DNA of 64,000 nt, taken from positions 434,001 through 498,000 of the forward strand of contig NZ_CP130060.1 of the NCBI RefSeq assembly GCF_030644385.1, written 5' to 3'. Within the stretch, counting starts at the first letter, position 1; each line of letters begins with the position of its first letter. The DNA is from Stomatobaculum sp. F0698. GTDB lineage: Bacteria; Bacillota; Clostridia; Lachnospirales; Lachnospiraceae. Both the position numbers and the translations under genes were made by a program. The notes beneath the pieces are model-generated. The model saw nothing but the letters and a program-made list of their open reading frames with translations. It did no database searches and was not told where the DNA came from. Shown here piece after piece: positions 40,647 through 57,384 of this stretch.

Positions 40647-40663
40647 ATGTCAGGAGAAATCAA

Positions 40664-41245
40664 ATGAGTTTAGTACCTTATGTCGTGGAAGATTCCGGCC
40701 GGGGCGAGCGGAGTTACGATATCTTTTCCCGCCTCTTAAAGGACAGAATCATCTTCCTCGATGAGGATGTCAACGATGTCAGCGCGGGCCTCGTGGTCGC
40801 GCAGCTCCTCTTCCTCGAGTCCGAGGATCCGGATAAGGACATCAACCTCTACATCAACAGCCCCGGCGGCAGTGTTACGGCGGGTATGGCAATTTACGAC
40901 ACCATGCAGTATGTGAAGTGCGATGTCTCGACCATCTGCATCGGCATGGCGGCGAGCATGGGCGCGTTCCTGCTTTCGGGCGGAACGAAGGGCAAGCGCT
41001 ATGCGCTCCCGAACGCGGAGATTATGATTCATCAGCCTTCCGGCGGTGCTCGCGGCCAGGAGACGGAAATCCGCATTGCGGCGGAGCAGATCCTCAAGAC
41101 GCGCAGCAAGTTAAACGAGATTCTTGCCGCGAACACCGGCAAGGACATCGAGGTGATTGCGCGCGACACCGAGAGAGATAACTACATGACGGCGGAAGAG
41201 GCAAAGGCCTACGGCCTGATTGACGCGGTTATCGCGCATCACTGA
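40664..41245 (+). CDS. clpP: ATP-dependent Clp protease proteolytic subunit
   Basis: Serine peptidase that forms the tetradecameric chamber used by ClpX. ATG 40664 follows CAGGAGAAATCAA. 193 residues. Catalytic Ser98 in [12 protein letters not shown], His123 in [13 protein letters not shown], and the Asp in the RDTERDN segment. [18 protein letters not shown] is intact. Follows tig by 17 bases. Confidence 0.98.
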
Positions 41246-41271
41246 GTCGTATAAAAGAGAAGGGAAGAAGC

Positions 41272-42561
41272 ATGCCCAATAAGAATGGCGAACATGTGCG
41301 CTGCTCTTTCTGCGGCAAGACAGAGGACCATGTCAAGAAACTTCTGTCCGGCCCGAACGGCGTCTACATTTGCGACGAGTGCGTGGCACTTTGCAATGAG
41401 ATATTGAGCGAAGAGTTTGACCGGGACGAGTCTGCGGAGAGGGCATTGCAGGGCATCAACCTGCTGCGCCCGAAGGAGATTAAGGCCTTTTTGGATGATT
41501 ATGTCATAGGCCAGGAGAGCGCGAAACGTGTTCTCTCGGTCGCGGTCTACAATCACTATAAGCGCATCATGTCCAATACGGACTCTGAGGTCGAAATTCA
41601 GAAGAGCAATATTCTGATGCTCGGACCGACCGGTTCGGGTAAGACCTACATTGCGCAGACGCTCGCAAAGATTCTGAATGTGCCCTTTGCGATTGCGGAT
41701 GCGACCACGCTCACAGAGGCCGGTTATGTCGGTGAGGACGTTGAGAACATCCTGCTCAAACTGATTCAGGCAGCGGGAGAAGATGTGAAACGTGCCGAAT
41801 ACGGCATTGTTTACATCGATGAAATTGACAAAATCACCAAAAAGAGCGAAAATGTATCTATCACCAGAGATGTCTCCGGAGAAGGTGTGCAGCAGGCTCT
41901 CCTTAAAATACTCGAGGGCACGGTTGCCTCGGTCCCGCCGCAGGGCGGCAGAAAGCACCCGCATCAGGAGCTCATTCAGATTGATACGACGAATATCCTC
42001 TTCATCTGCGGCGGTGCGTTTGACGGCCTGGAGAAGATTGTCGACTCTCGTCTCGGCAGCGGCGGCATGGGCTTTAACTCCCAAGTCATGGCAAAGAACA
42101 CGAGAGAAATCGACGAGCTCTTTCATCAGGTGATGCCGCAGGACCTCGTGAAGTACGGTTTGATTCCGGAGTTCATCGGCCGCGTGCCGATTACGGTTTC
42201 CTTAGACCTGCTCGACGAGGAAGCGCTGGTCAGCATTTTGACACAGCCGAAGAATGCGCTGGTGAAGCAGTACCAGAAGCTCTTTGAACTCGACAATGTA
42301 AAGCTCGAGTTCACCGAGGGTGCGGTGCGCGAAATTGCCCGTCTTGCGCTGGAGCGGAAGACCGGTGCCAGAGGTCTTCGCGCCATTGTCGAAGACGTCA
42401 TGATGGATATGATGTACGAAATTCCCTCCGACGAGACCGTGGGCATTTGCACGGTCACCGAGGAGATGGTAAAACGGGAGGAAGGACCTCAGATTGTCCA
42501 CCGCGAAGCGAGCGTAAAGCGCGAGCGGCAGAAACCCTCGAGACCGGGGGAGATTGCTTAA
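41272..42561 (+). CDS. clpX: ATP-dependent Clp protease ATP-binding subunit ClpX
   Basis: AAA+ unfoldase partner of ClpP. 429 residues with the N-terminal zinc-binding domain ([30 protein letters not shown]), Walker [17 protein letters not shown], Walker [11 protein letters not shown], pore loop GYVGEDVE, sensor motifs [14 protein letters not shown] [11 protein letters not shown] and GARGLRAI. 26 bases after clpP, so probably co-transcribed. Confidence 0.98.
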
Positions 42562-42603
42562 GCGGTACAACGAAATAGCGTAAGAACACGAGACACGTGA
42601 CAG

Positions 42604-42629
42604 GAAGGCGGGCATATGCCCGCCTTTTG
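42604..42629 (+). terminator. Terminator between clpX and lon
   Basis: AAGGCGGGCA / TGCCCGCCTT hairpin with TTTT tail. It suggests partial or full separation of lon from the clp genes, although no lon promoter was found in the 30 bases that follow. Confidence 0.75.
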
Positions 42630-42661
42630 AGTCATTTGCGGCACTGAGATAGGAGGAGGTC

Positions 42662-45094
42662 ATGAGGACAAGAAAACGTTATCCTGTGGTAGCGATGCGT
42701 GCGCAGGTTGTCCTTCCGGGCGCTGTGGCGCGTTTTGACCTGAGCCGCAGTCGGACGGTTGCCGCGGTGGAGGCGGCCATGCTACGGGACGGGCTTATCT
42801 TTTTGGTTGCGCAAAAAGATCCGGAGGAGATCGATCCCGGCGAAACCGGAATTTATCGCTACGGCACCTTGTGCCAGATTCGGTCGCTCACCAGGACCTC
42901 GCACAACACGCGGCGCGCCATGCTCTTCGGTATACGGCGCTGCAGTGTGGAGCAGCTGGTTCTGGAGGGCGAGGCCTATGAGGCCGAGATTTTCAATGCG
43001 CCGCTCCGCGCAATCGAAAAGAACGGCGAGGAGACCGAGGCCATGTTGCGCGCGCTGAAGGGCTATTTGCAGCTCTATGCGCGCGAGGACAAGGGCTTTG
43101 CGGAGAGGTATTTGCCGCGTCTCATTTCCGAGACCGGGCTCATGCAGCTCCTTCGGGCCAGTTCTTCACAGCTTCCCTGGGCCTGGGGGACGGGACAGCG
43201 CCTGCTCGAGTGCAATACGGGTGAGGAATTTTACGAGGTGCTGACCGGGGAGCTGACGCGCGAAATCGATGTCGTGCGGATGCGGCATGAGTATGAGCAG
43301 AAACTCCGCTTGCGACTTGACAAGAGTCAGCGTGAATTCATGCTAAGGGAGCAGCTGCGCATTATACAGGAGGAGCTCGGGGAGGCCGCGGAGGCAGAGA
43401 CCGATGCAAAGAGTTATGAGGGCAGGATTGCTGCGCTCACGGCAAGTGCCGAGGTGAAACAGAGCCTGCTCCGCGAGACGGCGCGCCTTGCGCGCCTGCC
43501 GCAGGGCACGCAGGAGTATGCCCTGCAGCAGAACTATTTGGACACCGTGCTCTCCCTGCCCTTTGACCGCAGTGCGGCGTGCAAGAGCTCCCTTCGGGAG
43601 GCAAGGCGAATTTTGGACCGGGATCACTACGGCCTCGAACAGGTCAAAGAGCGCATTCTGGACTCCCTCGCCGTGCGGCAACTGAATCCGGAGGCCGCGC
43701 AGGAAGTGATTTGCCTCGTGGGGCCGCCGGGAACCGGCAAGACCTCGATTGCGCGCAGCATTGCAGAGGCGCTCGGGCGGCGCTTTGCCCGCATCAGCCT
43801 CGGCGGCGTGCAGGACGAAGCGGAAATTCGAGGACACCGCAGAACCTATGTCGGCGCAATGCCGGGCAGGGTCGCGGATGCGCTGCGGCGCGCGGCGTGC
43901 AAGAACCCGCTGATTTTACTGGATGAAATCGACAAACTGTCGAAGGAGTACCGCGGAATGGCGGCGACGGCGGCGCTCCTCGAAGTTCTGGACAGTGCGC
44001 AGAATCGAAATTTTCGCGACCACTATGCGGAACTGCCCATGGACCTCTCGCAGGTCTTTTTCCTGGCAACCGCAAATACGACGGAGGGCATCCCGGCACC
44101 GCTCCTTGACCGCATGACCCTCGTGCACTTAAACAGTTATACCGAGACGGAGAAGTTTCACATTGCGAAGCGCTTCCTTTTGCCGAGAACGCGACGAAAC
44201 GCGGGCCTTAGCGAGGATAGGCTCACTTGGACCGACGGGGCCCTTCGTAAGCTCATACGGGAATACACGCGCGAAGCCGGGGTGCGCGCCGCGGAACGTT
44301 CGCTCCGTGAGGTTGCGGAAAAATGCGCGCGAAAACTGCTGTTGCGCGAAGCGGAGCGTTTCGAAGTGACGGCGGCTACGCTGTCCGACTATCTCGGAAA
44401 GCCGCGTTATCCGCAGCAGAGAATGAACCGACGCGCGGAAATCGGCCTTGCCTACGGTCTCGCTTACACAGCCGTTGGCGGCGTGGCGCTCTCGGTGGAG
44501 GTGGATGTGAACCGGGGACGCGGGCTCTTTCGGCCGACCGGACAGATGGGGGCCGTGATGCGGGAGTCCGCGGAACTGGCATTTGCGGTCGCAAAGCGGG
44601 AAGCAATCGGACGCGGGCTTCCGGCCGCCTTTTTCCGCGAAGCGGATGTGCACCTGCACATTCCCGCGGGGGCGGTGCAGAAGGACGGGCCGAGTGCCGG
44701 TGCCGCGATGGCGCTTGCACTGCTCTCGGCCTGCATCGGAGCACCCGTGCGCGCAGACCTTGCGGTGACCGGGGAAATTACGCTCCGCGGGCACATACTG
44801 CCGGTTGGCGGGCTCAAGGAGAAGTTGCTCGCCGCTGCGCGGGAGCACTTTACGGAACTTGCACTGCCCTTTGAGAACCGCGGCGAGGCAGAGGGGCTGC
44901 CGCCTGAAATTACGGCCGGACTTACGATTCACTATATCAAAGAATTTCGGGAACTTGCGGCGCTTGCGCTGACAGGACGGGGAGAAGAGACAGATGGAGA
45001 AAAAGACGACAACAGTACGCCCTTCGGTGGCAGGTGCCTTTGGGAAAAAGCGGCAGAGTGTGAAGAAGGAGAGGGAGAAGAAGAAGGGGATTGA
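42662..45094 (+). CDS. lon: ATP-dependent protease Lon
   Basis: 810-residue AAA+ serine protease. N-terminal substrate-binding domain, Walker A GPPGTGKTSIARS at about 354, Walker B LILLDEIDKLS, and the C-terminal protease with Ser678 in KDGPSAGAAMA and Lys719 in VGGLKEKLLAA, the Ser/Lys dyad. ATG 42662 follows AGGAGGAGGTC. The C-terminus is odd: after the usual end near FRELAALALTGRG it continues for about 35 residues as an acidic tail ending EGEGEEEGD. This tail is encoded by DNA that also codes for the start of ysxC in another frame. Confidence 0.96.
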   Translation: MRTRKRYPVVAMRAQVVLPGAVARFDLSRSRTVAAVEAAMLRDGLIFLVAQKDPEEIDPGETGIYRYGTLCQIRSLTRTSHNTRRAMLFGIRRCSVEQLVLEGEAYEAEIFNAPLRAIEKNGEETEAMLRALKGYLQLYAREDKGFAERYLPRLISETGLMQLLRASSSQLPWAWGTGQRLLECNTGEEFYEVLTGELTREIDVVRMRHEYEQKLRLRLDKSQREFMLREQLRIIQEELGEAAEAETDAKSYEGRIAALTASAEVKQSLLRETARLARLPQGTQEYALQQNYLDTVLSLPFDRSAACKSSLREARRILDRDHYGLEQVKERILDSLAVRQLNPEAAQEVICLVGPPGTGKTSIARSIAEALGRRFARISLGGVQDEAEIRGHRRTYVGAMPGRVADALRRAACKNPLILLDEIDKLSKEYRGMAATAALLEVLDSAQNRNFRDHYAELPMDLSQVFFLATANTTEGIPAPLLDRMTLVHLNSYTETEKFHIAKRFLLPRTRRNAGLSEDRLTWTDGALRKLIREYTREAGVRAAERSLREVAEKCARKLLLREAERFEVTAATLSDYLGKPRYPQQRMNRRAEIGLAYGLAYTAVGGVALSVEVDVNRGRGLFRPTGQMGAVMRESAELAFAVAKREAIGRGLPAAFFREADVHLHIPAGAVQKDGPSAGAAMALALLSACIGAPVRADLAVTGEITLRGHILPVGGLKEKLLAAAREHFTELALPFENRGEAEGLPPEITAGLTIHYIKEFRELAALALTGRGEETDGEKDDNSTPFGGRCLWEKAAECEEGEGEEEGD

Positions 45095-45746
45095 AGTTCC
45101 GCCGGCGGTATACCGCCCGCTGATCGGCGAAGACGGGAAGAGCCAAATTAAGGATGCCGTGCTGCAGTTTGTGCTTGGCGTGACGAGCGCACTTCCGGAA
45201 AGCAGTCTCCCTGAATTTGCCTTTGCCGGAAAGTCGAATGTGGGCAAATCGAGCCTCTTAAACGCGCTTGTAAACCGCAAGGCGCTCGCGCGGACTTCGT
45301 CGCAACCCGGTAAGACCCAGACCATCAATTTTTATCGCGTGAACGGCGCGGTGTATTTTGTGGACCTCCCGGGCTACGGCTATGCGAGCGCGAGCGAGGC
45401 GGTCAAGGCAAGTTGGGGTAAGATGATAGAGCGCTATCTAAATGAGGACAAGCAGCTCCGCGCGGTCTTCCTGCTCCTGGACCTTCGCCATGCGCCTTCG
45501 GAAAACGATATTCTGATGTACAACTGGATACTGGAGCAGGGACTGCCTGCCGTGCTGGTGGGAACCAAGGCGGATAAGGTAAAGCGGAGTCAGCTGGAGA
45601 AGCAGAAAAAGCTGCTCCGCGAGACCCTCGGCGCAACAAGAGAGACGCCGCTCATCCTCTTCTCTTCGGTCACAAAACAGGGAAGAGAGGACTTGCTGCG
45701 TCTGGTCGCGGAGATGGCGGGGGAGGTTTCAGTCCCGCGGGAGTAA
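44994..45746 (+). CDS. ysxC: Ribosome biogenesis GTP-binding protein YsxC/EngB
   Basis: GTPase needed for large-subunit assembly. The GTPase core is complete: G1 FAGKSNVGKSSLLN, G2 TSSQPGKTQTINFY, G3 VDLPGYGYA, G4 VGTKADK. Total 250 residues; typical family members have about 195-200. The excess is a ~50-residue basic N-terminal extension (TTTVRPSVAGAFGKKRQSVK and KKEREKKKG). ATG 44994 follows GGGGAGAAGAGACAG, and no other ATG occurs before the core. The first 101 bases overlap lon out of frame, and the last 18 overlap the convergent DUF4364 gene. Confidence 0.95.
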   Translation: MEKKTTTVRPSVAGAFGKKRQSVKKEREKKKGIEVPPAVYRPLIGEDGKSQIKDAVLQFVLGVTSALPESSLPEFAFAGKSNVGKSSLLNALVNRKALARTSSQPGKTQTINFYRVNGAVYFVDLPGYGYASASEAVKASWGKMIERYLNEDKQLRAVFLLLDLRHAPSENDILMYNWILEQGLPAVLVGTKADKVKRSQLEKQKKLLRETLGATRETPLILFSSVTKQGREDLLRLVAEMAGEVSVPRE

Positions 45747-46253
45747 TTCGTTGAGGAGCAGGCGGTACACGCGCTCCGGGTGCAGGGGGAAATTCCGGCA
45801 GATTTCGGCGGCCTGTGCTTCCTCGGGAACGCTGAGCTCCAGAGAGAGGAGGGCGGTACTGCCCTCGCTGAGTTCACAGCGGACACGGTACTCCTTGGTC
45901 TCGGTCAGGCGGTATTCCGCGCGCACGCTGCGTTCGTTTTCGATGCGCAGCATATTGTCCGAGAGAAAACGGTCCATATCGTCGCAGATTTCCCGGGAGA
46001 GGCGCTTTCCGAAAAAGGAGAGGGTCTCAAGTCCCTCGGGTGAGGCTGTGTAGCGGCTTCCGTACGCCGTGCTGTTTGCCAGAACGAGCCCGGCCTCGCA
46101 GAGCTCCGCGAGCGCCTGCCGCAGGGTGAAATAGCTCGTGTATTCACGCGACAGGAAAAATTCGGTGATGCGGTGCTCCGCGAGCGCGGTGTTCACCTGC
46201 TTCAACAGATACAGTATCATGAGTTTATAAAGTGTCATGGGTTCGGACAGCAT
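45729..46253 (-). CDS. DUF4364 family protein, probable winged-helix
   Basis: 174-residue protein. ATG 46253 is chosen for the GGAGGTACGC just upstream. The N-terminal part (LYKLMILYLLKQVNTALAEH, then TSYFTLRQALAELCEAGLVL and YTASPEGLETLSFFGKRLS) has the layout of a PadR/MarR-like winged helix. The C-terminal half is beta-rich. This fits the DUF4364 family common in Lachnospiraceae. It is divergent from the DUF5717 operon with 95 bases between starts, so it may regulate that operon (inference). No enzyme motif. Confidence 0.8.
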   Translation of the reverse strand: MLSEPMTLYKLMILYLLKQVNTALAEHRITEFFLSREYTSYFTLRQALAELCEAGLVLANSTAYGSRYTASPEGLETLSFFGKRLSREICDDMDRFLSDNMLRIENERSVRAEYRLTETKEYRVRCELSEGSTALLSLELSVPEEAQAAEICRNFPLHPERVYRLLLNELLPRD

Positions 46254-46286
46254 GCGTACCTCCAATCCCGGCAAGTATAGCAAGCT

Positions 46287-46314
46287 TTGCAAGCAAGGGG
46301 AAGTGTGTTAAAAT
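46287..46314 (+). promoter_or_regulatory. Putative promoter of the DUF5717 operon
   Basis: TTGCAA and TAAAAT with a 16-base spacer, 34 bases before the start codon, in the short divergent region with the DUF4364 gene. Confidence 0.6.
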
Positions 46315-46348: not shown

Positions 46349-49300
46349 ATGAGAGAGAGGATCAACCGACTTGCGCGGGGCGTACTGAACTCAGAAGTGC
46401 CTGTGCTTTCCGTGCGTCCGGAGAACTTACGTCTCTCTGTGCGGCGCGGGGAGATGCTCAGCGCGGAGTTTCATGCGGACAGCGAAAATGGGATACAGCT
46501 GAAGGGACTTGCGTACTCGGATGACATTCGCGTTCGGGTGCTGACTGAAAGTTTTGGCGGCGTCAGAAATCGAATTCGTCTCACGGCGGACGCTCGCTAC
46601 CTGGAAGTGGGAGATGAAATCGCCGGTCACATTTTACTTGTGACGGACGGCGGTGAGAAAAAAATAGAATATTGCTTCACTGTGACAGACGGACAGGGCA
46701 CGGAGCTTCTGGAGCGTCTAAAGAGCACAGAGGATTTTGCAAAAGTTGCGAAGACAGACCGCGAGGCGGCGCTTCGCATTTTTGCGTACCGGGAATTCCG
46801 GAGTGCGCCCTTCCTTCGGGATGCGGAGCGGAGCGCGCTCTACCGCGCATTTTCAAAGAGCAGCGACACGGCGCGCGGCATGGACGGTTTTCTCGCGGCA
46901 CTCGGAGAAAGACCGGGAGAAAGTTTCCGGGCAACGGCGGAGAGCGAACTCTTGCCGCGCACCGCGCGGAGCGGAAAGGTCTTTCTGGAAAGTGGGGAAG
47001 CCCTGCTCTTGCCGATTGCGGTCGAGGCGCGGGGAGACTTTCTCCGCTTGAGTCAGCGCAGCATTGCGCCGGAGAAAGTGCTCGGAGAGCGCTTTCCGTA
47101 TCTTTTTGACATTGACAGAAATGCCCTGCACGAGGGCAAGAATATCGGCGAACTGGTCTTTACGAGCGGGGATATTTGCCGCACGGTACGCCTCACGCTG
47201 ATTGCGGGCGCACAGGAGCGCAGAAGCGCGGCGGGACAGAACCGTGCGAACGAGCCGCGGGAGGGCAGACATATGCTGCGCTATCGGAGCGCCTATGCCC
47301 TCTTCCTGCTCAGCGGAAAACGTGAGCAGCTCGGAGAGGCGGAGGCAGCGCTCCGGGAAGCCGAGCGCGACAAAGAAGTAGATGCCCAGCGGGCAGCGCT
47401 GCTCTCGGCGGAACTTTTGGCGGCGCGTGGCAATACGACCCGGGCGCAGCAGTATCTTGCGCTCTTGGACGGAAGTTTCTCGGGAAGTGTGAGTCACAGC
47501 GCGGAGCGGCAGAAGCTTGTGCTCGCGGACAGTCTGCGCAGCCTCCTATCCGGAGACGAGCAGAGAAAACTGCGTGCGAGCGAGCGCCTGGAGCGCGAGC
47601 TCACGCGGGATGGCGATGCGGAACTCTTGCCGCTCCTGCTGCTCCTTGACCCGAGCTATCCGGAAGTTCGCGCCGCAAAGTGGGATAAACTTTTAAAACT
47701 CTGCTATCGCAAAGGCAGCCGCAGCATTTATCTCTATTCCTTGCTCGCGAAGAGCCTTCGCGAGCACAAGGAGCCTTTGACGGCGCTCGGACCGGATACC
47801 TTTGCGGCCCTTCGTTTTTTACTCCGCGAACAGGCCATGACCAAGCCGCTTGCGCGGCGGGTGGCTGCGCTTGCAACCGAAACGGACAGCTGGGGCCGGG
47901 GGGCGATGCGTGTGCTTCGCGCGGTCTATGAGAAATTGCCGCAGCAGGAACTCTTGGAAGTTTTTGTGCGCGGTGCGCTGCGCCGCGGCGCGCGTGACCG
48001 CGAGGCCTATCGCTGGTACCGCGAGGCCGTGCGCTTGGACCTCCGCATTGCGGGACTCTACGAGGCCCTCCTTGAGAGTATGCCGGAGGATGAGGCCGAG
48101 CCGCTTCCGCGGGAACTGCTCTTATACTTCCTCTTCGACAATACGCTCGAAGAAGAAAGTTTAACCAAGCTCTACAAGAAAGTCTGCGAGAACCGGGAAA
48201 ACGAGTCCGGCATTTGGCGCGAGTACCGCCGGGAAATCGAGGACTTCGGCTTAAAGCGCTTGCTTTCGGGTAAGGTGAGCCGCAGCCTTGCGGAAATCTA
48301 CCGCGCCCTGCTCTGGCCAGGCATGATAGACAAGCGCCTTGCGGCGGAACTGCCGCGCATTCTGCTCACCCACTATGTCGCGGACGAGCGGGCCGAGGCG
48401 CACCGTCTGATTGCGGTCTATCCGGAATTGGAAAAAGAGGAGCAGGTCGATTTCCTGCGGGGAGAGGCCTATATTCCGCTCTATTCGCCGCGGGTCATAC
48501 TGCTCACGGAAGACAGCGCGGGCAACCGGCGCGCGCCGAAGGCGTTGAAGCGGGAGGCGCTGTTTGACCTGCCCGAATATCTGGAACAGTGCGAGCTGCT
48601 TCAGCCGGAACAGCCTGCGGTACTGCTCAGAAGGCTGGAAGAACTCTTAAAGCGTGCCCGAGAGGGCGCGGAAAATTTGGACGATGAGGCTGTGAAGAGC
48701 CTGCGCTACGGTCTGGAGGAAATGCCGCTCGCGGAGAGTTGTAAGCGCGAGATACGCGCCGCCCTCCTTGCGAACAAGTCGCGCTGTGAGGCGTATTTAC
48801 AGAGCAGCGACAAGGCACTCTTTACGGAGGCGGAGCGCGCCGAGATTTTTGCGCTGCTCGTGCAGCGCGAAAAGTGGCAGGAGGCCTATGAGCTCGTACA
48901 GGAGTACCTGCCGCGCAAACTGGATCCAGAGGCCTTACGGCAGCTGCTCACCGAGCTTCTTCGAAGCAAGAAGGCAGCCGCGGACGAGTGCTTCACCAAG
49001 CTTGCGCTCGCGGTATTTCGGAGCGGCAAGGCAGGCGTCGAGATACTCAACTATCTGGCGGCGAATTATAACGGCGGCAGTGCGGAGATGCGCGAACTGC
49101 TCCACGCGGTCGAAGAACAGGGGGCGGAGGCCGGAGATTTGCCGGCGCGTCTTCTCGCGGAACAGCTCTTCCTCGGTGACCGCAGCGAACTTCGCTGGAT
49201 TTTCGCCTGCTGCGAGAAGCAGGGGGCGGTGCAGCGTGAACTCGCGGAGGCTTATTTTACGGTCTGTGCGGCCGAATACGTTCTCTCGGACCTTCCGCTC

Positions 49301-49957
49301 ACGGCAGACCAGGCGCGGGCCATGGAGGACTATGCCGAGCAGATGCCGAAGCTTCCGGAACTCTACGCCTATGCGCTGCTCAAGTATTATGTGTCGCTTG
49401 AGAGCCTCGGAAGCAGAGAAAAGAAACTCGCCGAGCGCTTTTTACAGTCGCTCGCCGAACGGGATATTTTCGTACCGGAGACAAAGAAACTCTCCGGCAG
49501 CGTGAACTTGCCGGACAGCCTTTCGGAGCGCGCTGTTTTCACCTTCCGCGGAGAGGAGGGCAAGCGCTACCTCATCGAGTCTCGCGTTTTGCCCGGGGAA
49601 GAGAACTTCCGCCGCGCAGACTGCAAAAAGCTCTTTGGGCGCATCTATCAACGGAGCACGGTGCTCTTTGCCGGTGAGACGGAAGAGTATCGCGTGACGG
49701 AGGCGGAGAGCGGCGAAGTGGTACAGCGTGCGGTACTCCGGGAGAGTGCGGCGCGCACGGCACAGGGCAGCGGTTATGCACGCCTCAACCGGATGGGAAT
49801 TATGCTGGACGGTGAGGAGGAGAGTCTTGCGGCGGAACTTTCGGCTTACGCCGCGGCGCGTGAGGCACGGAGCGAACTCTTTGCCTTGAATGCGGAAAAT
49901 ACGGTTTTGACAGGAGCACAGAGAGGAGCGGATGGCAATGCAATATCTGGGGATTGA
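46349..49957 (+). CDS. DUF5717-type giant helical protein
   Basis: 1202-residue soluble protein. ATG 46349 (MRERINRLARGVLNSEVPVL) follows AGAGGAAGG; the upstream ATG at 46328 lacks a good site. The N-terminal ~110 residues look like a beta-sandwich (RPENLRLSVRRGEMLSAEFH, ADARYLEVGDEIAGHILLVT). The long middle is alpha-helical, rich in Leu, Arg, Glu and Ala, with repeat-like pairs of helices. The last ~140 residues are again beta-rich (SERAVFTFRGEEGKRYLIES). No signal peptide, membrane segment, Walker or zinc motif. I assign it to DUF5717 from memory of lachnospiral proteins. Its end overlaps the DUF5716 gene by 26 bases. It may be a scaffold or client-binding partner of that protein; function unknown. 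Confidence 0.75.
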   Translation: MRERINRLARGVLNSEVPVLSVRPENLRLSVRRGEMLSAEFHADSENGIQLKGLAYSDDIRVRVLTESFGGVRNRIRLTADARYLEVGDEIAGHILLVTDGGEKKIEYCFTVTDGQGTELLERLKSTEDFAKVAKTDREAALRIFAYREFRSAPFLRDAERSALYRAFSKSSDTARGMDGFLAALGERPGESFRATAESELLPRTARSGKVFLESGEALLLPIAVEARGDFLRLSQRSIAPEKVLGERFPYLFDIDRNALHEGKNIGELVFTSGDICRTVRLTLIAGAQERRSAAGQNRANEPREGRHMLRYRSAYALFLLSGKREQLGEAEAALREAERDKEVDAQRAALLSAELLAARGNTTRAQQYLALLDGSFSGSVSHSAERQKLVLADSLRSLLSGDEQRKLRASERLERELTRDGDAELLPLLLLLDPSYPEVRAAKWDKLLKLCYRKGSRSIYLYSLLAKSLREHKEPLTALGPDTFAALRFLLREQAMTKPLARRVAALATETDSWGRGAMRVLRAVYEKLPQQELLEVFVRGALRRGARDREAYRWYREAVRLDLRIAGLYEALLESMPEDEAEPLPRELLLYFLFDNTLEEESLTKLYKKVCENRENESGIWREYRREIEDFGLKRLLSGKVSRSLAEIYRALLWPGMIDKRLAAELPRILLTHYVADERAEAHRLIAVYPELEKEEQVDFLRGEAYIPLYSPRVILLTEDSAGNRRAPKALKREALFDLPEYLEQCELLQPEQPAVLLRRLEELLKRAREGAENLDDEAVKSLRYGLEEMPLAESCKREIRAALLANKSRCEAYLQSSDKALFTEAERAEIFALLVQREKWQEAYELVQEYLPRKLDPEALRQLLTELLRSKKAAADECFTKLALAVFRSGKAGVEILNYLAANYNGGSAEMRELLHAVEEQGAEAGDLPARLLAEQLFLGDRSELRWIFACCEKQGAVQRELAEAYFTVCAAEYVLSDLPLTADQARAMEDYAEQMPKLPELYAYALLKYYVSLESLGSREKKLAERFLQSLAERDIFVPETKKLSGSVNLPDSLSERAVFTFRGEEGKRYLIESRVLPGEENFRRADCKKLFGRIYQRSTVLFAGETEEYRVTEAESGEVVQRAVLRESAARTAQGSGYARLNRMGIMLDGEEESLAAELSAYAAAREARSELFALNAENTVLTGAQRGADGNAISGD

Positions 49958-51158
49958 TCTCTCAAACAGCGAAAGCACGCTCCTGTTTTCTTCGGGAGAG
50001 CGTGAGCGCACGCTCTCCCTTGCCACAGTCATCTTCCGCGAGCAGGAGAAGGAGAACTGGTACGTCGGGAGCGAGGCTTGCGAAAAGGCGCTTGCGGGAC
50101 TGGGGAGCATGGCGGAAAATTTGCTCGCCGGGAGTGAGCGCGGGGGCAGCATCCTGGTCGAAGGGACAGAGTACCGCGCAATCGAACTGTTGGCGCGCTT
50201 TTTAAAGCTCGCGAAGCGGGAGCTTATCGGGGAAGAGAAGGGTGAGGCAACGTACACGGTGCTGGTGTTGCCGGAATATCGCCTTTCTTTCGTGCGGGAA
50301 TTGCGCACGCTTCTTTCGCAGTACGATTTTCCGGCGGATACGCTCCGCATCATCAGCCGGGAGGAGAGTTTCCTTCACTTTTTACGCGGAGAGCCGGCAC
50401 TGCTCGAAGCGGGCGAGGTAGGGCTCTACGCTCTCGAGGAGAAGTCGTTTGCGTTTTACGCCGGCAGAAGCAAAAAAGAAAAAAATAAAGACGTCTTGCT
50501 TGCGGAGACGCAGAACATGCGAGAGGCCTTTACCCTGAAGCTCTTGAACAACAGTCAGGGAGAGAATTATGCGGATCATTTGCTCGCGACCAATGCGGAG
50601 AAGGTGCTGAGAAACCGCCACTTTGCCAGTGTCATTTTGACCGGAGCGGGCTTTAACCGCATGGATTGGTCGCAGAACTTTCAGCGTTCGGTCTGTAAGG
50701 GGCAGAGAAAGCTCTATCAGGACAAGAATGTCTTTGCGACAGGGGCTGTTCTGGCCGGCCGCGCCGCGGTCGAAAAGCGCGAATTGCCACGCTTTGTCTG
50801 CAAGGGGCGTGCGCCCGTGCGCCTCTCGCTGCTCGTAAAGCAGGAGGGACAGGAGCGGGAACTGGTGCTCGCGGAGCGCGGCGCGGCCTTATTGACGGCG
50901 GGAGGTCGCTTCCGTTTTCTTCCGGAGGACGGAAAGGACTTGCAAGTCCTTCTTTCGGACGGCGCGCGCGTTGTCAAGAGCCTTCCGGTGGCGCTCGATG
51001 TGTTGCCGGAACGCGAGGATAAGAGCTGCTATATCGACCTAAGCTTCCGCTTCTCGGATGAGAGGCATGCGGAATTTACGCTGGTCGATGCGGGCTTCGG
51101 TGAAATTTTCCCGCCGAGCGGCAAGGAGAGCAAACAGGAGGTAGAGCTGTGGGACTGA
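49932..51158 (+). CDS. DUF5716-type Hsp70/actin-fold-like protein
   Basis: 408 residues, starting at ATG 49932 or 49938 after GAGAGGAG. The order of segments resembles a shortened Hsp70: MQYLGIDLSNSESTLLFSS (phosphate-1-like), VLVLPEYRLSFVRELRTLLS (like VPAxFxxxQR), an EESFLHFL stretch, VILTGAGFNRMDW (adenosine-site-like), FATGAVLAGRAA (like AxGAAxQA), then a beta-rich C-terminal third (PVRLSLLVKQEGQERELVLA) in the place of the substrate-binding domain. The phosphate-2 DLGGGT loop is missing; the position reads VGLYALEEKSFAFY. It may bind nucleotide without normal hydrolysis. Middle gene of three overlapping genes. The family name is from memory. Confidence 0.7.
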   Translation: MAMQYLGIDLSNSESTLLFSSGERERTLSLATVIFREQEKENWYVGSEACEKALAGLGSMAENLLAGSERGGSILVEGTEYRAIELLARFLKLAKRELIGEEKGEATYTVLVLPEYRLSFVRELRTLLSQYDFPADTLRIISREESFLHFLRGEPALLEAGEVGLYALEEKSFAFYAGRSKKEKNKDVLLAETQNMREAFTLKLLNNSQGENYADHLLATNAEKVLRNRHFASVILTGAGFNRMDWSQNFQRSVCKGQRKLYQDKNVFATGAVLAGRAAVEKRELPRFVCKGRAPVRLSLLVKQEGQERELVLAERGAALLTAGGRFRFLPEDGKDLQVLLSDGARVVKSLPVALDVLPEREDKSCYIDLSFRFSDERHAEFTLVDAGFGEIFPPSGKESKQEVELWD

Positions 51159-51964
51159 TATGGATCAAAGAGACCAATCCCCGGGAGAAACTTTATCTCG
51201 AGGAGCTCGGTCTTAATGTGGAGACGCTGGAAGAGCTCTCTTATCTGATACTCAAGTACCCGCCGCTCTTTCTCGACAACTTCGTGGGAGAAAAGTTCTT
51301 CTCCTTTCTCTCGCGCGGGGCGCGACACAGCGAGCTCGCGCGGGAACTGAGGAGTTTGCAGCGCGAAAAGGCGAAGAGCGATGAAATTTTGTCGCGCTTT
51401 CTCGCGCGGGGCGGCTATGCGAGCCCCAGGCAGCAAAGCCTGTTTGCCCAGAGCGTAAAAGAATATCTGGCGTTCCCGAAGGAGCGCGCGGAGCAGAAAA
51501 AGGGAGATCTTTTTTTGTCGCTCCGAAAATACGGAAAGGCCGTTGCGGCATATGAGCGCGCGCTCTCCAAGGAGAGTTTGGACCGTGCGACCAAGAGTAC
51601 GCTCCTCGACCGAGAGGGCGCGGCACTCGCGAACCTCTTTTTAACGGAGCGCGCCTTTGAATGTTTTCAAAGCGCCTATGCACTCAGAAAAGACAGGGAC
51701 ATCGTGAAGCGCATGTATTTTCTCGCAAAGAGCGAGCCGGATAAGGCGCTGCGCGAGCGCTTTGAAAAAGAGCTTCCCGCCCTAAGGGAGGCAGAGAAGG
51801 AGCGCTTTGACGAGGAACTCCGCGCGGTGAAGGCGCGCGCCGCGGAGGGGCCTGAGGTGCGCGAGGTCGCGGCCATACTTGCGGAACAGGATGCCGAAAA
51901 GCGCCGGGCGCTGGAGAAAAAAATCATAGCGCAGTGGAGAGAAGAGTACCGCAGCATGGTCTGA
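51149..51964 (+). CDS. TPR-like helical protein of unknown function
   Basis: 271 residues from GTG 51149, which follows CAGGAGGTAGAGCT within the end of the preceding gene. All-helical: LEELSYLILKYPPLFLDNFV, a region with KKGDLFLSLRKYGKAVAAYERAL and GAALANLFLTERAFECFQSAY that match tetratricopeptide-like pairs (about 110-190), and a charged coiled-coil C-terminus. No signal or membrane segment. It ends the three-gene unit and fits a co-chaperone-like adaptor for the Hsp70-like protein (inference). Not a family I can name. Confidence 0.7.
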   Translation: MGLIWIKETNPREKLYLEELGLNVETLEELSYLILKYPPLFLDNFVGEKFFSFLSRGARHSELARELRSLQREKAKSDEILSRFLARGGYASPRQQSLFAQSVKEYLAFPKERAEQKKGDLFLSLRKYGKAVAAYERALSKESLDRATKSTLLDREGAALANLFLTERAFECFQSAYALRKDRDIVKRMYFLAKSEPDKALRERFEKELPALREAEKERFDEELRAVKARAAEGPEVREVAAILAEQDAEKRRALEKKIIAQWREEYRSMV

Positions 51965-52004: not shown

Positions 52005-54644
52005 ATGAAAATACTTCCGAAGACTTATACTCCCTCGGAGATTGAAGATAAGCTCTATCAGAGCTGGATGGACCGCGGTTATTTTCACGCGGAGGTAGAT
52101 GAGCGGAAAAAGCCGTTTTGCATAGTCATGCCGCCGCCGAATATCACGGGACAGCTGCACATGGGCCATGCGCTCGACAATACGATGCAGGATATCCTGA
52201 TTCGTTTCCGCAGAATGCAGGGCTACTCCGCACTCTGGCAGCCGGGCACGGACCACGCGGCCATCGCGACGGAAGTCAAGGTCATCGAGAAGCTCAAAAA
52301 AGAGGGCAGAGACAAGGAGCAGCTCGGCAGAGAGAAGTTCCTCGAGGAGTGTTGGGACTGGAAGGAAGAGTACGGAAACCGCATCATCAACCAGTTGAAG
52401 AAGCTCGGCTCCTCTGCGGACTGGGACAGAGAGCGCTTCACAATGGACGAGGGCTGCTCGGAGGCGGTTCAGGATGTCTTCCTGCGTCTCTATGAGAAGG
52501 GCTATATCTACCGCGGCAGCCGCATCATCAACTGGTGCCCGGTCTGTCAGACCACGATTTCCGATGCGGAGGTCGAGCACGTCGACAAGGACGGCTTCTT
52601 CTGGCACATCAAGTACCCGATCGTCGGGGAGGACGGCGCCTATGTCGAAATCGCGACCACGAGACCGGAGACCCTGCTCGGCGATACCGCCGTCGCGGTG
52701 AACCCGGAGGACGAGCGTTATACCGCGCTGGTCGGTAAGCTGTTAAAGCTTCCGCTCACGGAGCGGGAGATTCCGGTCATCGCGGACAGCTATGTGGATC
52801 CCGAATTCGGAACCGGCTGCGTGAAGATTACGCCGGCGCACGACCCGAACGACTTTGAGGTGGGCAAGCGCCACAACTTGCCGGAAATCACGATTTTAAA
52901 CGACGACGCGACCGTGCGCTGCCCGGGCTCGCCCTATGACGGCATGGACCGCTACGAGGCGAGAAAGGCCATGGTCAAGGACCTCGAGGCAGCGGGGCTT
53001 CTCGTGAAGGTCGTGCCGCACAGCCATGCGGTCGGCGTACACGACCGCTGCAAGACCGTCATTGAGCCCATGATCAAGCCCCAGTGGTTTGTGAAGATGG
53101 AGGAGATGGCAAAGCCGGCCATTGAGGCGCTGAAGACGGGCGAGCTCAAGTTTGTGCCGGAGAGCTACGGCAAGACTTATTTAAACTGGCTCGAGGGCAT
53201 TCACGACTGGTGCATCTCCCGCCAGCTCTGGTGGGGACACCGGATTCCCGCCTACTACTGCGAGGACTGCGGCGAAGTCGTGGTCGCAGCCAAGGCACCG
53301 GAGAGCTGCCCGCACTGCGGCGGACACAAGTTCCGCCAGGATGAGGACACGCTTGACACCTGGTTCAGCTCGGCACTCTGGCCCTTCTCGACCCTCGGTT
53401 GGCCGAAGGACACGCCGGAGTACCGCTACTTCTACCCGACCGATGTGCTGGTGACCGGCTATGACATCATCTTCTTCTGGGTAATCCGCATGGTCTTCTC
53501 CGGCATCGAACAGACCGGCAAGCTGCCGTTCCACACGGTGTTGATTCACGGTCTGGTGCGCGATTCCGAGGGCAGAAAGATGTCCAAGTCGCTCGGAAAC
53601 GGCATCGATCCGCTCGAAGTCATTGAGCGCTACGGCGCGGATGCGCTGCGCCTCACCCTGATGACGGGCAATGCGCCGGGCAACGACATGCGCTTCTACT
53701 GGGAGAGAGTGGAATCCGCGCGCAACTTTGCGAATAAGATTTGGAATGCGGCGCGCTTTATCGAGATGAACCTCGGCGAGACCATGCCGGCGGAGCCCGA
53801 AGCTTCGGCGCTTCTTCCGCAGGACCGCTGGGTGCTGCACCGGCTGAACAGCCTCACGGGTGAAGTCACGGAGAACCTCGAGAAGTTCGAGCTCGGCATT
53901 GCGCTCCAGAAGGTCTATGACTTTATCTGGGAGGAGTTTTGCGACTGGTACATCGAGATGGTGAAGCCGCGCCTCTGGAACAAGGAGGACCCGACCCGCG
54001 AGGCTGCGCTCTGGACGCTCCGCGAGGTCTTAAGCCGCGCGCTGAAGCTTCTCCACCCCTTCATGCCCTTCATCACCGAGGAAGTGTTCTTAAGCCTCAA
54101 CGAAGAGGAGAGCATCATGATTTCCGCTTGGCCGGAGTGCGAAGCGCGTTTCTCCTTCCCGGAGGACGCTGCCGAGGTGGAGCGCATCAAGGACGCGGTG
54201 CGCGAAATTCGCCGCATTCGCACTTCGATGAACGTTGCGCCGGGACAGCAGGCGGAAGTCTTTGTGGTCTCGGAGGACAAGGCGGTGCTCGACAGCTTCC
54301 GCCGCGCGGAAGATTTCTTCCGTGTGCTTGGCCGCGCTTCGGAGGTAAAGCTTCAGCAGGACAAGACAGGCATTCAGGAGGACGCGGTCTCGGCCGTCAT
54401 TCCCGGTGCGATGATTTACATTCCGTTTGCGGATTTGGTCGATGTGGAGAAGGAGAAGGAGCGCTTAAAGCGGGAGGAAGAGCGTCTCGAGAATGAGATT
54501 GCACGCGCGGACGGCATGCTCCGGAACGAAAAGTTCCTCGCAAAGGCACCGGCCGATAAGGTCGCTGCCGAGCAGGAGAAGCGTAAAAAGTATGAGGAAA
54601 TGCTTGTAAAGGTGAGAGAGCAGAGAAAGCTGCTCGGCGACTGA
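52005..54644 (+). CDS. valS: Valyl-tRNA synthetase
   Basis: Class I synthetase with editing domain. 879 residues. HIGH-type PPPNITGQLHMGHALDNT, AAIATEVKVIE, editing-domain TTRPETLLGDTAVAVNPED, HDWCISRQLWWGHRIPAYYC, KMSKS in GRKMSKSLGNGIDP, and the C-terminal coiled coil (KEKERLKREEERLENEIARA) specific to ValRS. ATG 52005 after AGAGAGGACTGAAT. Followed 12 bases later by folC. Confidence 0.98.
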   Translation: MKILPKTYTPSEIEDKLYQSWMDRGYFHAEVDERKKPFCIVMPPPNITGQLHMGHALDNTMQDILIRFRRMQGYSALWQPGTDHAAIATEVKVIEKLKKEGRDKEQLGREKFLEECWDWKEEYGNRIINQLKKLGSSADWDRERFTMDEGCSEAVQDVFLRLYEKGYIYRGSRIINWCPVCQTTISDAEVEHVDKDGFFWHIKYPIVGEDGAYVEIATTRPETLLGDTAVAVNPEDERYTALVGKLLKLPLTEREIPVIADSYVDPEFGTGCVKITPAHDPNDFEVGKRHNLPEITILNDDATVRCPGSPYDGMDRYEARKAMVKDLEAAGLLVKVVPHSHAVGVHDRCKTVIEPMIKPQWFVKMEEMAKPAIEALKTGELKFVPESYGKTYLNWLEGIHDWCISRQLWWGHRIPAYYCEDCGEVVVAAKAPESCPHCGGHKFRQDEDTLDTWFSSALWPFSTLGWPKDTPEYRYFYPTDVLVTGYDIIFFWVIRMVFSGIEQTGKLPFHTVLIHGLVRDSEGRKMSKSLGNGIDPLEVIERYGADALRLTLMTGNAPGNDMRFYWERVESARNFANKIWNAARFIEMNLGETMPAEPEASALLPQDRWVLHRLNSLTGEVTENLEKFELGIALQKVYDFIWEEFCDWYIEMVKPRLWNKEDPTREAALWTLREVLSRALKLLHPFMPFITEEVFLSLNEEESIMISAWPECEARFSFPEDAAEVERIKDAVREIRRIRTSMNVAPGQQAEVFVVSEDKAVLDSFRRAEDFFRVLGRASEVKLQQDKTGIQEDAVSAVIPGAMIYIPFADLVDVEKEKERLKREEERLENEIARADGMLRNEKFLAKAPADKVAAEQEKRKKYEEMLVKVREQRKLLGD

Positions 54645-55901: not shown

Positions 55902-56044
55902 TTAATTTTGATGAGGAGATTCGCAACTACCGCTCGAGCCTTGAAATCTCGGCGGTGGAGGACGCCATCGTCCGCAGCGATCTCACGGATATGAAGGATA
56001 TTATGATGGAGCTCTTAAAGCGGAGCGGAGAGACAGAAGCATGA
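55898..56044 (+). CDS. 48-residue small protein between folC and the TPR gene
   Basis: A 48-codon frame linked at both ends by ATGA overlaps: it starts on the folC stop and its stop contains the next gene's ATG. GGCGGAGGAAGGC supplies a binding site. The product begins MINFDEEIRNYRSSLEISAV, is acidic and probably helical, and ends in LLKRSGETEA. The double coupling argues that it is translated. Perhaps an adaptor of the membrane TPR protein that follows (inference). Family unknown. Confidence 0.72.
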   Translation: MINFDEEIRNYRSSLEISAVEDAIVRSDLTDMKDIMMELLKRSGETEA

Positions 56045-57384
56045 ATGTATTTGAGCGCTGCGATCGGGCGGCAAACAGCTGCTACAACCGCGGACTGCGG
56101 CTCGCCAAACAGAGGGATTTATCCGGCGCGGTGCCGTATTTAAAGCGTGCCCTGGAACTCAATAAGAATTTAATCGAGGCCAGAAATCTCCTGGGACTCA
56201 TTTTCTATGAGATGGGAGAGGTCGGTGATGCGCTCGTGCAGTGGGTTATCAGCATAGACCTTCGCACCGAAAATAACCGAGCGGTCTTTTATCTCGACGA
56301 TGTCAGACGCCGCGGCGGTCAGCTCGAATCCTTCGCTACGATGATCGAGCGCTACAATGTGGCGCTCGATGCGGCACAGCGCGGGAACTACGACCTTGCG
56401 ATTCATCAGCTTGCCCGCATTGTGGCGCAGCATCCGAACTATGTGCGGGCGGGGCTTTTGCTCTCGCTTCTCTACATAGAGGCGGGCGATTATAAGCGCG
56501 CGGATCACTACCTGCGCCTGGTGCGAAAAACCGACCGCATGAACCAGACAGCGGTGCGCTATGCGGATGCCGCGGCACAGGAACTGCGCCGCGTGCAGAA
56601 AAAACAGGACAAGCCGCGCGAAGAGGTGCAGAACGGGTCGAAAACCTATTCGCACCGGGAGATGTCGGACGATGAAGTGCTGATTCCCTCGACCTACCGG
56701 GAGAGCACGGGCTGGCAGACCGCGCTGAATATCGGCATAGGTCTTCTGATCGGTGCGGCGGCCATCGTCTTTCTCTATATGCCGACCAAGCGAGCGGAGT
56801 TGAATTCCCAGCACAATGCGGAGATTCGGGAACTGAACCGGAAGCTCGCCTCCGCGAACAGTGCGGTGCGCGATTCGGAGCAGAACCACAGCAGTGCCGA
56901 GGAGGAGAAAAATGCCCTGCAGGCCGAGGTCGATATGCTGACCGACGGCGCAAACAGCAAAATTTCCCAGTACCAGAAATTGGTCGGCATTGTGAACGAT
57001 ATCCGGAACAATGACTTTGCCCGAGCGGCCGAGCTCTATGCGACGCTGGACGTGTCACAGCTCACGGACATCGACGACGGCAGCGGGGTCTCGGTGACGG
57101 AAATCTATCAGTCGATTGCGGGACGAATGAACAGCGAGGGCTATTTGAGCCTCTACAGCCGCGCCGAAGTGCAGTATCAGGCGGGAAATTATCGGGGCGC
57201 CATCGATCTCTATGATAAGTCGCTCGCAATCAACCCGAACTATGCGCCGGCGCTCTTCCGAAAGGCCATGGCCTATAAGGAGCTCGGCGACAACGATACG
57301 GCAAACAGCTTCTTCGAAGAAGTCGGCACGCGTTTCCCGGGAACGGAGCTTGCGAGACAGGCGGAGAGCGAAAAAATACGTTAA
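56041..57384 (+). CDS. Membrane-anchored TPR protein with coiled coil
   Basis: 447 residues in four parts: N-terminal tetratricopeptide repeats (about 1-185, for example GAVPYLKRALELNKNLIEAR and GNYDLAIHQLARIVAQHPNY), a single membrane helix (about 222-243, WQTALNIGIGLLIGAAAIVF), a coiled coil (AEIRELNRKLASANSAVRDS onward), and two or more C-terminal repeats (GNYRGAIDLYDKSLAINPNY, then ELGDNDTANSFFEEVGTRFP). The N-terminal repeats would be cytoplasmic and the C-terminal ones extracellular. Probably a scaffold; partners unknown. Followed by a terminator. Confidence 0.8.
   Translation: MNVFERCDRAANSCYNRGLRLAKQRDLSGAVPYLKRALELNKNLIEARNLLGLIFYEMGEVGDALVQWVISIDLRTENNRAVFYLDDVRRRGGQLESFATMIERYNVALDAAQRGNYDLAIHQLARIVAQHPNYVRAGLLLSLLYIEAGDYKRADHYLRLVRKTDRMNQTAVRYADAAAQELRRVQKKQDKPREEVQNGSKTYSHREMSDDEVLIPSTYRESTGWQTALNIGIGLLIGAAAIVFLYMPTKRAELNSQHNAEIRELNRKLASANSAVRDSEQNHSSAEEEKNALQAEVDMLTDGANSKISQYQKLVGIVNDIRNNDFARAAELYATLDVSQLTDIDDGSGVSVTEIYQSIAGRMNSEGYLSLYSRAEVQYQAGNYRGAIDLYDKSLAINPNYAPALFRKAMAYKELGDNDTANSFFEEVGTRFPGTELARQAESEKIR

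Follow-up and report, generated by a model that had tools for sequence, protein, structure and literature searches.

Ssz1, a non-canonical Hsp70 of the ribosome-associated complex (RAC), has a rudimentary SBD-beta and no lid, binds ATP without hydrolyzing it, and forms a stable complex; its partner is the J-protein Zuo1 (excerpts of PMC10191838). The GAP1-N2 neighborhoods, as described in excerpts of Kaur et al. 2020 (PMC7159879), combine an Hsp70 and GrpE with a second Hsp70 that lacks the peptide-binding domain and with an FNIII protein fused to TPR or DnaJ. The Pfam families DUF5716 and DUF5717, of which two of the proteins analyzed here (P2 and P1, respectively) are members, carry no function, and we found nothing on DUF5717 or the genes of the trio in the open-access literature searched, with the single hit for DUF5716 appearing unrelated.

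The trio lies in a 64,000-nucleotide stretch of Stomatobaculum sp. F0698 DNA, referred to here as the window. The original prediction proposed that three overlapping genes, including those for 1202-residue and 271-residue products, encode a chaperone-like system, and all three frames are indeed open and overlapping on the + strand. The features are as follows.

46349..49957, + strand: P1, a giant DUF5717 protein of 1202 aa (Pfam PF18984 and PF18983)
46397..46702, + strand: P1 domain D1, homologous to D2 by hhalign
46907..47227, + strand: P1 domain D2, a tandem copy of D1, likewise by hhalign
49932..51158, + strand: P2, DUF5716, a degenerate, lidless Hsp70 or pseudo-Hsp70 (PF18980, PDB profile search, hhalign to DnaK, tree)
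49944..50792 (approximate limits), + strand: P2 region aligned to the Hsp70 nucleotide-binding domain (NBD) by hhalign to DnaK
50436..50447, + strand: P2 E167-S170, in place of the phosphate-2 GGGT (DnaK alignment; column counts over 31 rows)
50853..51107 (approximate limits), + strand: P2 region aligned to the Hsp70 SBD-beta, ending DAGFGE (PDB profile and hhalign; C-terminal columns alone)
51149..51964, + strand: P3, a TPR protein of 271 aa with no family model (profile versus PDB; a single weak TPR match; 19-row alignment)
52005..54644, + strand: valS (Pfam), starting 41 bases past P3

Since seven near relatives of P2 (P0001-P0003, P0005-P0007, and P0009) begin at the second ATG (49938), P2 probably starts there and is 406 rather than 408 aa long. 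The dN/dS values of the trio genes relative to a same-genus genome (G469) are 0.15 to 0.21. A search of the window for the CIRCE heat-shock operator pattern gave 0 matches.

P2 matches DUF5716_C (PF18980) with 174 bits, and the Pfam HSP70 model misses it; used as a single sequence against the PDB, it returned noise (best E value, 0.29). A 31-row P2 profile, in contrast, retrieved 10 distinct PDB sequences at E ≤ 10, all of them DnaK (best, 3.5e-5), and the three printed alignments cover the start of the NBD and then the end of SBD-beta. When this profile was aligned with 28 DnaKs by hhalign, the score was 75.5 over 379 columns (P2 8-407 to DnaK 2-464), relative to a mean of 16.6 (standard deviation [sd], 2.9; maximum, 25.8) for 100 column-shuffled control profiles; a single DnaK scored 65.6, a single MreB 22.5, and the reversed profile 17.5. 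This alignment runs colinearly from the NBD through SBD-beta in the same order as in DnaK. The C-terminal part stands on its own: aligned to DnaK 377-464, profile columns 300-422 score 34.8 without the rest of the profile (100 shuffles: mean, 15.0; sd, 2.5; maximum, 22.8), whereas the middle of the NBD (columns 120-310) is undetectable by itself (20.1). Rows of the window lineage alone scored 53.9 against DnaK (maximum of 60 shuffles, 26.2), with the match limited to the first 114 columns. These profile comparisons show that P2 is a homolog of Hsp70, with similarity over both the NBD and SBD-beta, and on this basis we identify DUF5716 as an Hsp70-derived (pseudo-Hsp70) family.

Although P2 is homologous to bacterial DnaK (PF00012) over these two regions, it lacks the lid, the catalytic lysine, and the phosphate-2 loop and is ~200 residues shorter. 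The window P2 terminates 16 residues past the SBD-beta match, leaving no alpha-helical lid. The phosphate-1 motif G.D.GTT is degenerate: its G is present in 29 and its D in 26 of 31 rows (2 gapped), while the first threonine occurs in none and the second in 4 of 29 lettered rows. The column of the catalytic lysine (K70) contains no K in 30 lettered rows (L14, V5, Y4, F4, I2, and A1, with one gap). At the phosphate-2 GGGT columns, G appears in 1, 2, and 1 of 31 rows and T in 0, and no row contains GG[GT]T. The column aligned to the connect-1 glutamate (E171) holds mostly Q, I, or V and a single E, although the mapping skips the next profile column and the pairing is unsure. The Hsp70-like order of motifs and the missing phosphate-2 loop that had been read from the window alone were thus borne out by the DnaK alignment and the column counts. 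Judging from these residues, P2 in the window's family is probably non-hydrolyzing, although it may still bind ATP.

P1 matches DUF5717_N (PF18984) over residues 1-875 (518 bits) and DUF5717 (PF18983) over residues 879-1178 (169 bits), and its layout comprises a tandem pair of beta-type domains, a long middle, and the DUF5717 C-terminal domain. D1 and D2 align with an hhalign score of 48.3, relative to a mean of 11.7 (sd, 2.2; maximum, 18.4) for 40 column-shuffled controls. The beta domains had no PDB match better than an E value of 0.1, and the 21-row P1 profile had none at E ≤ 10. The long middle may consist of helical repeats, and 3 of 21 P1 members have a weak TPR_19 match. Scores of the P1 profile against P3, P2, P4, and DnaK, obtained without shuffle controls, were 27.6, 16.3, 20.3, and 19.6, with probabilities of ≤2%. 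We propose that P1 is a scaffold.

The TPR-like nature predicted for the third protein is upheld by its profile and its relatives. TPR proteins top the list in the best 60 of the 149 distinct PDB sequences matched by a 19-row P3 profile at E ≤ 10. TPR matches of the window P3 alone are sub-threshold in Pfam, but one of four family relatives exceeds the cut-off (P3 of locus L007; TPR_2, 28.2 versus 27), and a P3 from a sister family does so clearly (TPR_19, 72.9 versus 25). In one genome (G440), P2 and P3 are fused in a single 690-aa frame (P2 model at 3-27 and 101-420, P3 model at 8-277), and P3 may dock on P2. Many genomes carry a membrane coiled-coil neighbor, P4, a coiled-coil protein with two transmembrane segments; neither a 4-row nor a 13-row P4 model found it in the window's genome.

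All three genes are present, mostly in single copy, in 242 of 250 genomes of the window's family, and they were contiguous in 43 of 48 other family genomes read, usually in the single order P1-P2-P3. The genes are therefore not commonly found apart, although there are exceptions: P1 lies apart in G436 and P3 in G481, and G543 has P1 while P2 and P3 were not found. DUF5716_C occurs in 244 of 250 family genomes, in 5 of 398 genomes of the phylum (all 5 from the window's family), and, outside this family but within the order, in 56 genomes, mostly as weaker matches in longer frames; in these samples, the proposed restriction to Lachnospiraceae and close relatives holds. The near-universal presence of the trio suggests that it serves an important cell function.

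In sister families of the order, the trio genes are part of a larger operon, which runs P1, Hsp70-A, a GrpE-domain protein (X), P2, Hsp70-B, Hsp70-C with a VWA domain, P3, and sometimes P4, followed by valS. The catalytic positions checked are intact in Hsp70-A (17/17), Hsp70-B (19/19), and Hsp70-C (16/16) but not in P2 or its sister-family counterpart, P2L. Since P2L matches both DUF5716_C (12/12) and Pfam HSP70 (10/12; best, 4.3e-19), it provides a bridge from P2 to Hsp70. GrpE matches were obtained for 12 of 12 X proteins, as well as for the short X of locus L141, and VWA matches for 10 of 10 Hsp70-C proteins. In a quick-search tree whose long-branch warnings name the P2-like protein of L141, P2 and P2L form one group and, together with Hsp70-B, another (SH-aLRT, 100 each), with Hsp70-B nearest to P2. 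Among the matches listed for the scanned operon proteins, including P1, P3, P4, and X, there was no J-domain or DnaJ, although an active Hsp70 cycle would be expected to involve one. In the open-access literature searched, we found no description of an operon that combines several Hsp70s, one of them fused to VWA, with a dedicated GrpE-domain protein.

Given an Hsp70-related P2, a TPR-containing P3, and genes that travel together, a chaperone-like machine remains the best reading. It is improbable, however, that the trio is self-contained and active as a chaperone, with P2 hydrolyzing ATP and P3 serving as a eukaryotic-type TPR co-chaperone. The NBD and SBD-beta of P2, the TPR of P3, and the plainly ATP-driven kind of the sister operon would fit such a chaperone, but the losses at the P2 catalytic lysine, GG[GT]T, and phosphate-1 threonines, together with the lack of a J-domain among the listed matches, speak against it. 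In the window genome, moreover, the HSP70 model matches DnaK and an MreB-type gene only. We therefore drop "self-contained" for the window trio; the term does fit the operon of the sister families, which has a GrpE-domain protein and three Hsp70s whose checked catalytic positions are intact. That P2 is instead an actin-like cytoskeletal or pilus-assembly ATPase of the MreB, FtsA, or PilM type is scarcely probable. Hsp70 and actin-like ATPases have the actin-type fold in common, and a membrane coiled-coil neighbor would suit a cytoskeletal role; nevertheless, the profile search of the PDB returned DnaK alone, MreB scored at control level in hhalign, the SBD-beta similarity exceeds its controls, the tree sets P2 beside Hsp70-B, and no actin-like family was among the Pfam matches listed for the 31 P2 rows.

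The surroundings of the trio raise the question of translation. In four sister-family loci (L141, L148, L154, and L156), the operon is followed by a valS-like start, recognized by its N-terminal signature. In the window, L133, L120, and L008, valS comes after P3 or P4, and upstream of the trio the window contains tig, clpP, clpX, lon, and engB. Together with the Ssz1 analogy, this neighborhood could indicate a RAC-like complex serving translation or nascent chains, but we consider this unlikely: flanks elsewhere in the family differ (by eye, purF-, rarA-, and pheT-like genes as well as ABC transporter genes), no ribosome-binding feature was seen, and no J-domain partner was found. A conflict or stress-sensing system akin to the GAP1-N2 neighborhoods is quite improbable. 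Pfam holds GAP1 models, and the matches listed for the scanned operon proteins include neither a GAP1 nor a GTPase (flanks were partly scanned). The tandem beta domains of P1 recall such systems, and the sister operon shares with those in the excerpted account (PMC7159879) an Hsp70, a reduced second Hsp70, GrpE, and a beta-domain protein with TPR; it differs from that account in having no GAP1 or DO-GTPase among the listed matches and in having four Hsp70-type genes plus VWA. Unlike patchy defense systems, the trio is a trait of nearly a whole family, whose members mostly carry it in a single copy.

We consider it reasonably likely that the window trio is a reduced, probably non-hydrolyzing core of the order's multi-Hsp70 machine. 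In the sister families, the Hsp70s would run ATP cycles on the P1 scaffold, with the GrpE-domain protein as a putative exchange factor, whereas the ATP-driven parts would have been lost in the window's family. P1, P2, and P3 would assemble into a single complex in the cytoplasm, which P4, in the genomes that carry it, would link to the membrane. P2 would act without hydrolysis as a fixed clamp, its SBD-beta holding a client or a segment of a partner (P1 or P3), either alone or passing clients to the housekeeping DnaK. Ssz1 in RAC is the best mechanistic analog for such a role: Ssz1 is a lidless, non-canonical Hsp70 by the excerpted account (PMC10191838), and so is P2 by our alignments, although the Ssz1 partner there is a J-protein and no J-domain was found here, and the likeness is probably convergent. 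"Reduced" is favored over "expanded," albeit not proven, because the P2 counterpart in the sister families (P2L) is already degenerate and because P2 branches among the operon Hsp70s in the tree.

A fuller version of this reduced-core reading, which we offer more tentatively as quite possible, is that the core complex kept across the family is what is left, without hydrolysis, of a machine that was linked to the membrane and had four Hsp70-type subunits. P2 would be a permanent clamp on the giant scaffold, working with no ATP turnover, and the complete, ATP-driven and GrpE-served version would operate in the sister families. If true, such a hydrolysis-dead clamp complex would add a new type to the machines derived from Hsp70. 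Two Pfam families of unknown function, found in nearly every sampled genus of a family of gut bacteria, gain an identity here, with DUF5716 recognized as a pseudo-Hsp70, and the full and apparently reduced versions in neighboring families constitute a natural experiment on Hsp70 without ATP hydrolysis.

P1, P2, and P3 lie in overlapping frames on one strand, directly downstream of a five-gene cluster and followed by valS, which starts 41 bases past the end of P3. The genes considered here were as follows.

39360-45746, forward strand: tig, clpP, clpX, lon, engB cluster
45729-46292, reverse strand: DUF4364 gene, divergent from P1
46349-49957, forward strand: P1, 1202 aa, DUF5717_N and DUF5717 (Pfam)
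49932-51158, forward strand: P2, 408 aa as called, DUF5716_C (Pfam)
51149-51964, forward strand: P3, 271 aa, TPR below threshold only (Pfam)
56041-57384, forward strand: TPR protein, 447 aa, whose two TPR blocks are separated by a strongly hydrophobic segment around residue 227
58533-63404, forward strand: protein of 1623 aa in which eight stretches match Listeria-Bacteroides repeats, SH3 matches weakly, and the C terminus is LPXTG-like, just under the cutoff; likely a cell wall surface protein

No NCBIfam model matched P1, P2, or P3 above its cutoff. Since all seven close P2 relatives in our alignment begin at the internal ATG at 49938, P2 is likely 406 aa long. Relative to G469, a genome of the same genus, dN/dS was 0.175 for P1, 0.211 for P2, 0.150 for P3, and 0.094 for valS, and the synonymous distance was greater for the trio (1.1 to 1.55) than for valS (0.38). 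Given that a DUF4364-like gene is also seen by eye upstream of P1 in loci L133 (same genus), L104, and L120, the DUF4364 gene perhaps regulates P1 in this lineage. L133 also carries lon-like and engB-like genes in the same position (by eye), and a protein with a start similar to that of the 447-aa TPR protein adjoins a folC-like gene there.

The Pfam HSP70 model did not match the P2 of the window. A P2 profile was built from 31 diverse rows. When searched against all PDB chain sequences, this profile matched 10 distinct sequences at an E value of ≤10, all of them DnaK (best E value, 3.5e-5); the three alignments printed show a match at the start of the nucleotide-binding domain and a weak second match at the end of the substrate-binding beta domain (SBD-beta). 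Profile-profile comparison with 28 DnaKs scored 75.5 over 379 columns (P2 8-407 to DnaK 2-464), compared with a mean of 16.6 (standard deviation, 2.9; maximum, 25.8) for 100 column-shuffled controls, 17.5 for the reversed profile, 18.0 for P3, and 23.2 for P4, the two-transmembrane coiled-coil neighbor of P3. Against single proteins, the profile scored 65.6 with DnaK and 22.5 with MreB of the same genome. Taken alone, 24 rows belonging to other lineages scored 69.3, and the 7 rows of the window lineage scored 53.9, over the N-terminal 114 columns only (60 shuffles: mean, 17.3; maximum, 26.2). The C-terminal columns alone scored 34.8 against SBD-beta (100 shuffles: mean, 15.0; maximum, 22.8), and columns 120 to 310 alone scored 20.1 against DnaK, which is the control level. 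On these profile grounds, P2 is an Hsp70 homolog.

The catalytic residues of this homolog are largely replaced. In the 31 rows, the phosphate-1 glycine is present in 29 (the other two are gapped) and the aspartate in 26, and the first phosphate-1 threonine is found in none and the second in 4. The catalytic-lysine column holds L in 14, V in 5, Y in 4, F in 4, I in 2, A in 1, and one gap. The phosphate-2 aspartate is retained in 21 of 31 rows, but glycine occurs in 1, 2, and 1 rows, respectively, at the three glycine columns of this motif, and no row has T at its threonine column; the adenosine-motif glycine is invariant (31/31). P2 also has no lid. Judged by these residues, P2 cannot be a normal Hsp70 ATPase.

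P1 contains tandem beta-type domains (17-118 and 187-295) that are homologous to each other (score, 48.3; 40 shuffles: mean, 11.7; maximum, 18.4), and the remainder appears to be helical and repeat-like; TPR_19 matches 3 of 21 P1 members weakly, and PDB profile searches found no solved relative. The P3 profile matched 149 distinct PDB sequences, with TPR proteins best. In one genome (G440), a single 690-aa frame comprising P2 (model positions 3-27 and 101-420) and P3 (8-277) is a natural P2-P3 fusion. The fused protein is without P2 positions 28 to 100, and P2 of locus L005 is shortened in the same region. P4 follows P3 in many genomes and read as a coiled coil plus two adjacent hydrophobic segments in 13 of 13 proteins. 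Of the 250 family genomes, 108 have a strong P4 match (E value of ≤1.8e-15), and a further 6 have a weak one. A profile search did not find P4 in the genome of the window or in G469, and P1, P2, and P3 of the window lack such hydrophobic segments.

The trio is nearly universal in the family. In a sample of 250 family genomes (249 genera), DUF5717_N was found in 245, DUF5716_C in 244, and P3 in 244, although one P3 match, that in G426 (E value, 1.4e-4), probably reflects a TPR protein unrelated to P3; all three were present in 242. G426, G488, and G621 had no convincing P1, P2, or P3. The trio was partial in five genomes, three of them incomplete (G417, 67%; G595, 70%; G543, 68%) and two with P1 at a contig edge (G495 and G525). 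In a phylum sample, DUF5716_C (5/398 genomes) and DUF5717_N (4/396) occurred exclusively in this family, the rows shown including only one genome from another family of the order.

We read the trio region in 48 further family genomes, among them four (G406, G436, G481, and G489) chosen since match lists placed their trio genes on different contigs. P1, P2, and P3 were together, in this order and on one strand, in 43 (including G489), and contig ends interrupted the region in G495 and G406. Three exceptions were real: in G436 (L243/L244), P1 is on a separate contig, away from its ends, and P2-P3-P4 are together; in G481 (L241/L242), P1 stays with P2, and a different contig carries P3; and in G543 (L136, contig C26), P1 is followed by unrelated genes, P2 and P3 not being found. 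Because match lists give best matches only, further exceptions may exist. P2 was next to P1 in 29 of 30 loci fetched by P1, the remaining locus being that of G406.

In an order-wide sample of 146 genomes, DUF5716_C was found in 71, of which 15 were from the family and 56 from other families; the latter matches were mostly weaker, in frames of ~475 to 580 aa, and often two per genome. The 75 genomes with no DUF5716 match imply that the machine was lost, never gained, or diverged beyond the model. We classed genes with HMMs and N-terminal signatures in 20 of the 56 genomes and found a sister operon, with the order Hsp70-A, X, P2-like, Hsp70-B, Hsp70-C, P3 in 16 (small frames intervening in some) and P1 (whole, split, or edge cut) ahead of Hsp70-A in 15. 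L144 and L160 hold operon parts only, L147 and L152 reach contig ends, and in L141 Hsp70-C and P3 each occupy two frames, which we kept split. P4 and then a valS-like gene follow P3 in 4 of 20 loci (L141, L148, L154, and L156); within the family, the window, L133, L120, and L008 each have valS after P3 or P4. Sister P1, scanned in L161 and L141, matched DUF5717 above the cutoff as two genes. All 12 X members scanned carry a GrpE domain at the C terminus, as does the short X of L141, and all 10 Hsp70-C proteins scanned combine HSP70 with a VWA domain at the C terminus.

The catalytic positions checked were intact in all Hsp70-A (17), Hsp70-B (19), and Hsp70-C (16) proteins. In the 20 P2-like proteins, gaps or noncanonical letters are commonest at the TT, K, third-G, T, and D201 positions, though D194 is retained in 14 and the first G in 12. 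Since P2-like proteins match both DUF5716_C (12/12) and Pfam HSP70 (10/12), they tie DUF5716 directly to Hsp70. A quick-search tree of 57 proteins, which carried long-branch warnings (L141 P2-like named) and a DnaK outgroup that did not form one clean side, grouped P2 with P2-like (SH-aLRT, 100), placed L141 P2-like beside family P2 (100), and made Hsp70-B sister to P2 plus P2-like (100).

Among the best 80 loci of an Hsp70-A scan, 18 had at least 59% identity and the next had at most 35%. The 18 were labeled Clostridiales (8), Defluviitaleaceae (7), Eubacteriaceae (2), and Clostridia (1); four (L161, L170, L172, and L173) are, judging by length, the contigs of L158, L145, L146, and L151 and are not independent. 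By class models, Hsp70-A, X, and P2-like were in order in 16 of 18, although additional frames separate X from P2-like in L164, L165, and L173; L174 and L178 stop before P2-like. The fetched stretches of L164, L166, and L177 hold this block without P1, B, C, or P3 matches, and the block is a possible submodule. Outside the sister operon, L181 (Clostridia MAG) and L183 (Methanosarcinales MAG) have short X-model matches next to Hsp70-type genes.

We read the trio of the window as a reduced form of the sister operon. Hsp70-A, X, Hsp70-B, and Hsp70-C are missing from the trio locus, and in the genome of the window, the HSP70 model found only DnaK and MreB; the loss of A, B, and C is genome-wide as checked in that one genome, and the loss of X applies to the loci. 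The degeneracy of the P2-like protein within the sister operon makes it probable that the larger machine already contained a nonhydrolyzing Hsp70 subunit. An open-access literature search did not find the sister operon; the nearest described neighborhood found was the GAP1-N2 Hsp70/GrpE theme (PMC7159879), whose GTPase and GAP1 are not seen here. The nearest worked-out analog of P2 is Ssz1, which binds but does not hydrolyze ATP, has a rudimentary SBD-beta and no lid, and forms a stable partner complex (PMC10191838). We propose that P2 serves as a fixed clamp within a P1-P2-P3 complex, which may act on a client, be linked to the membrane, and perhaps hand over to DnaK.
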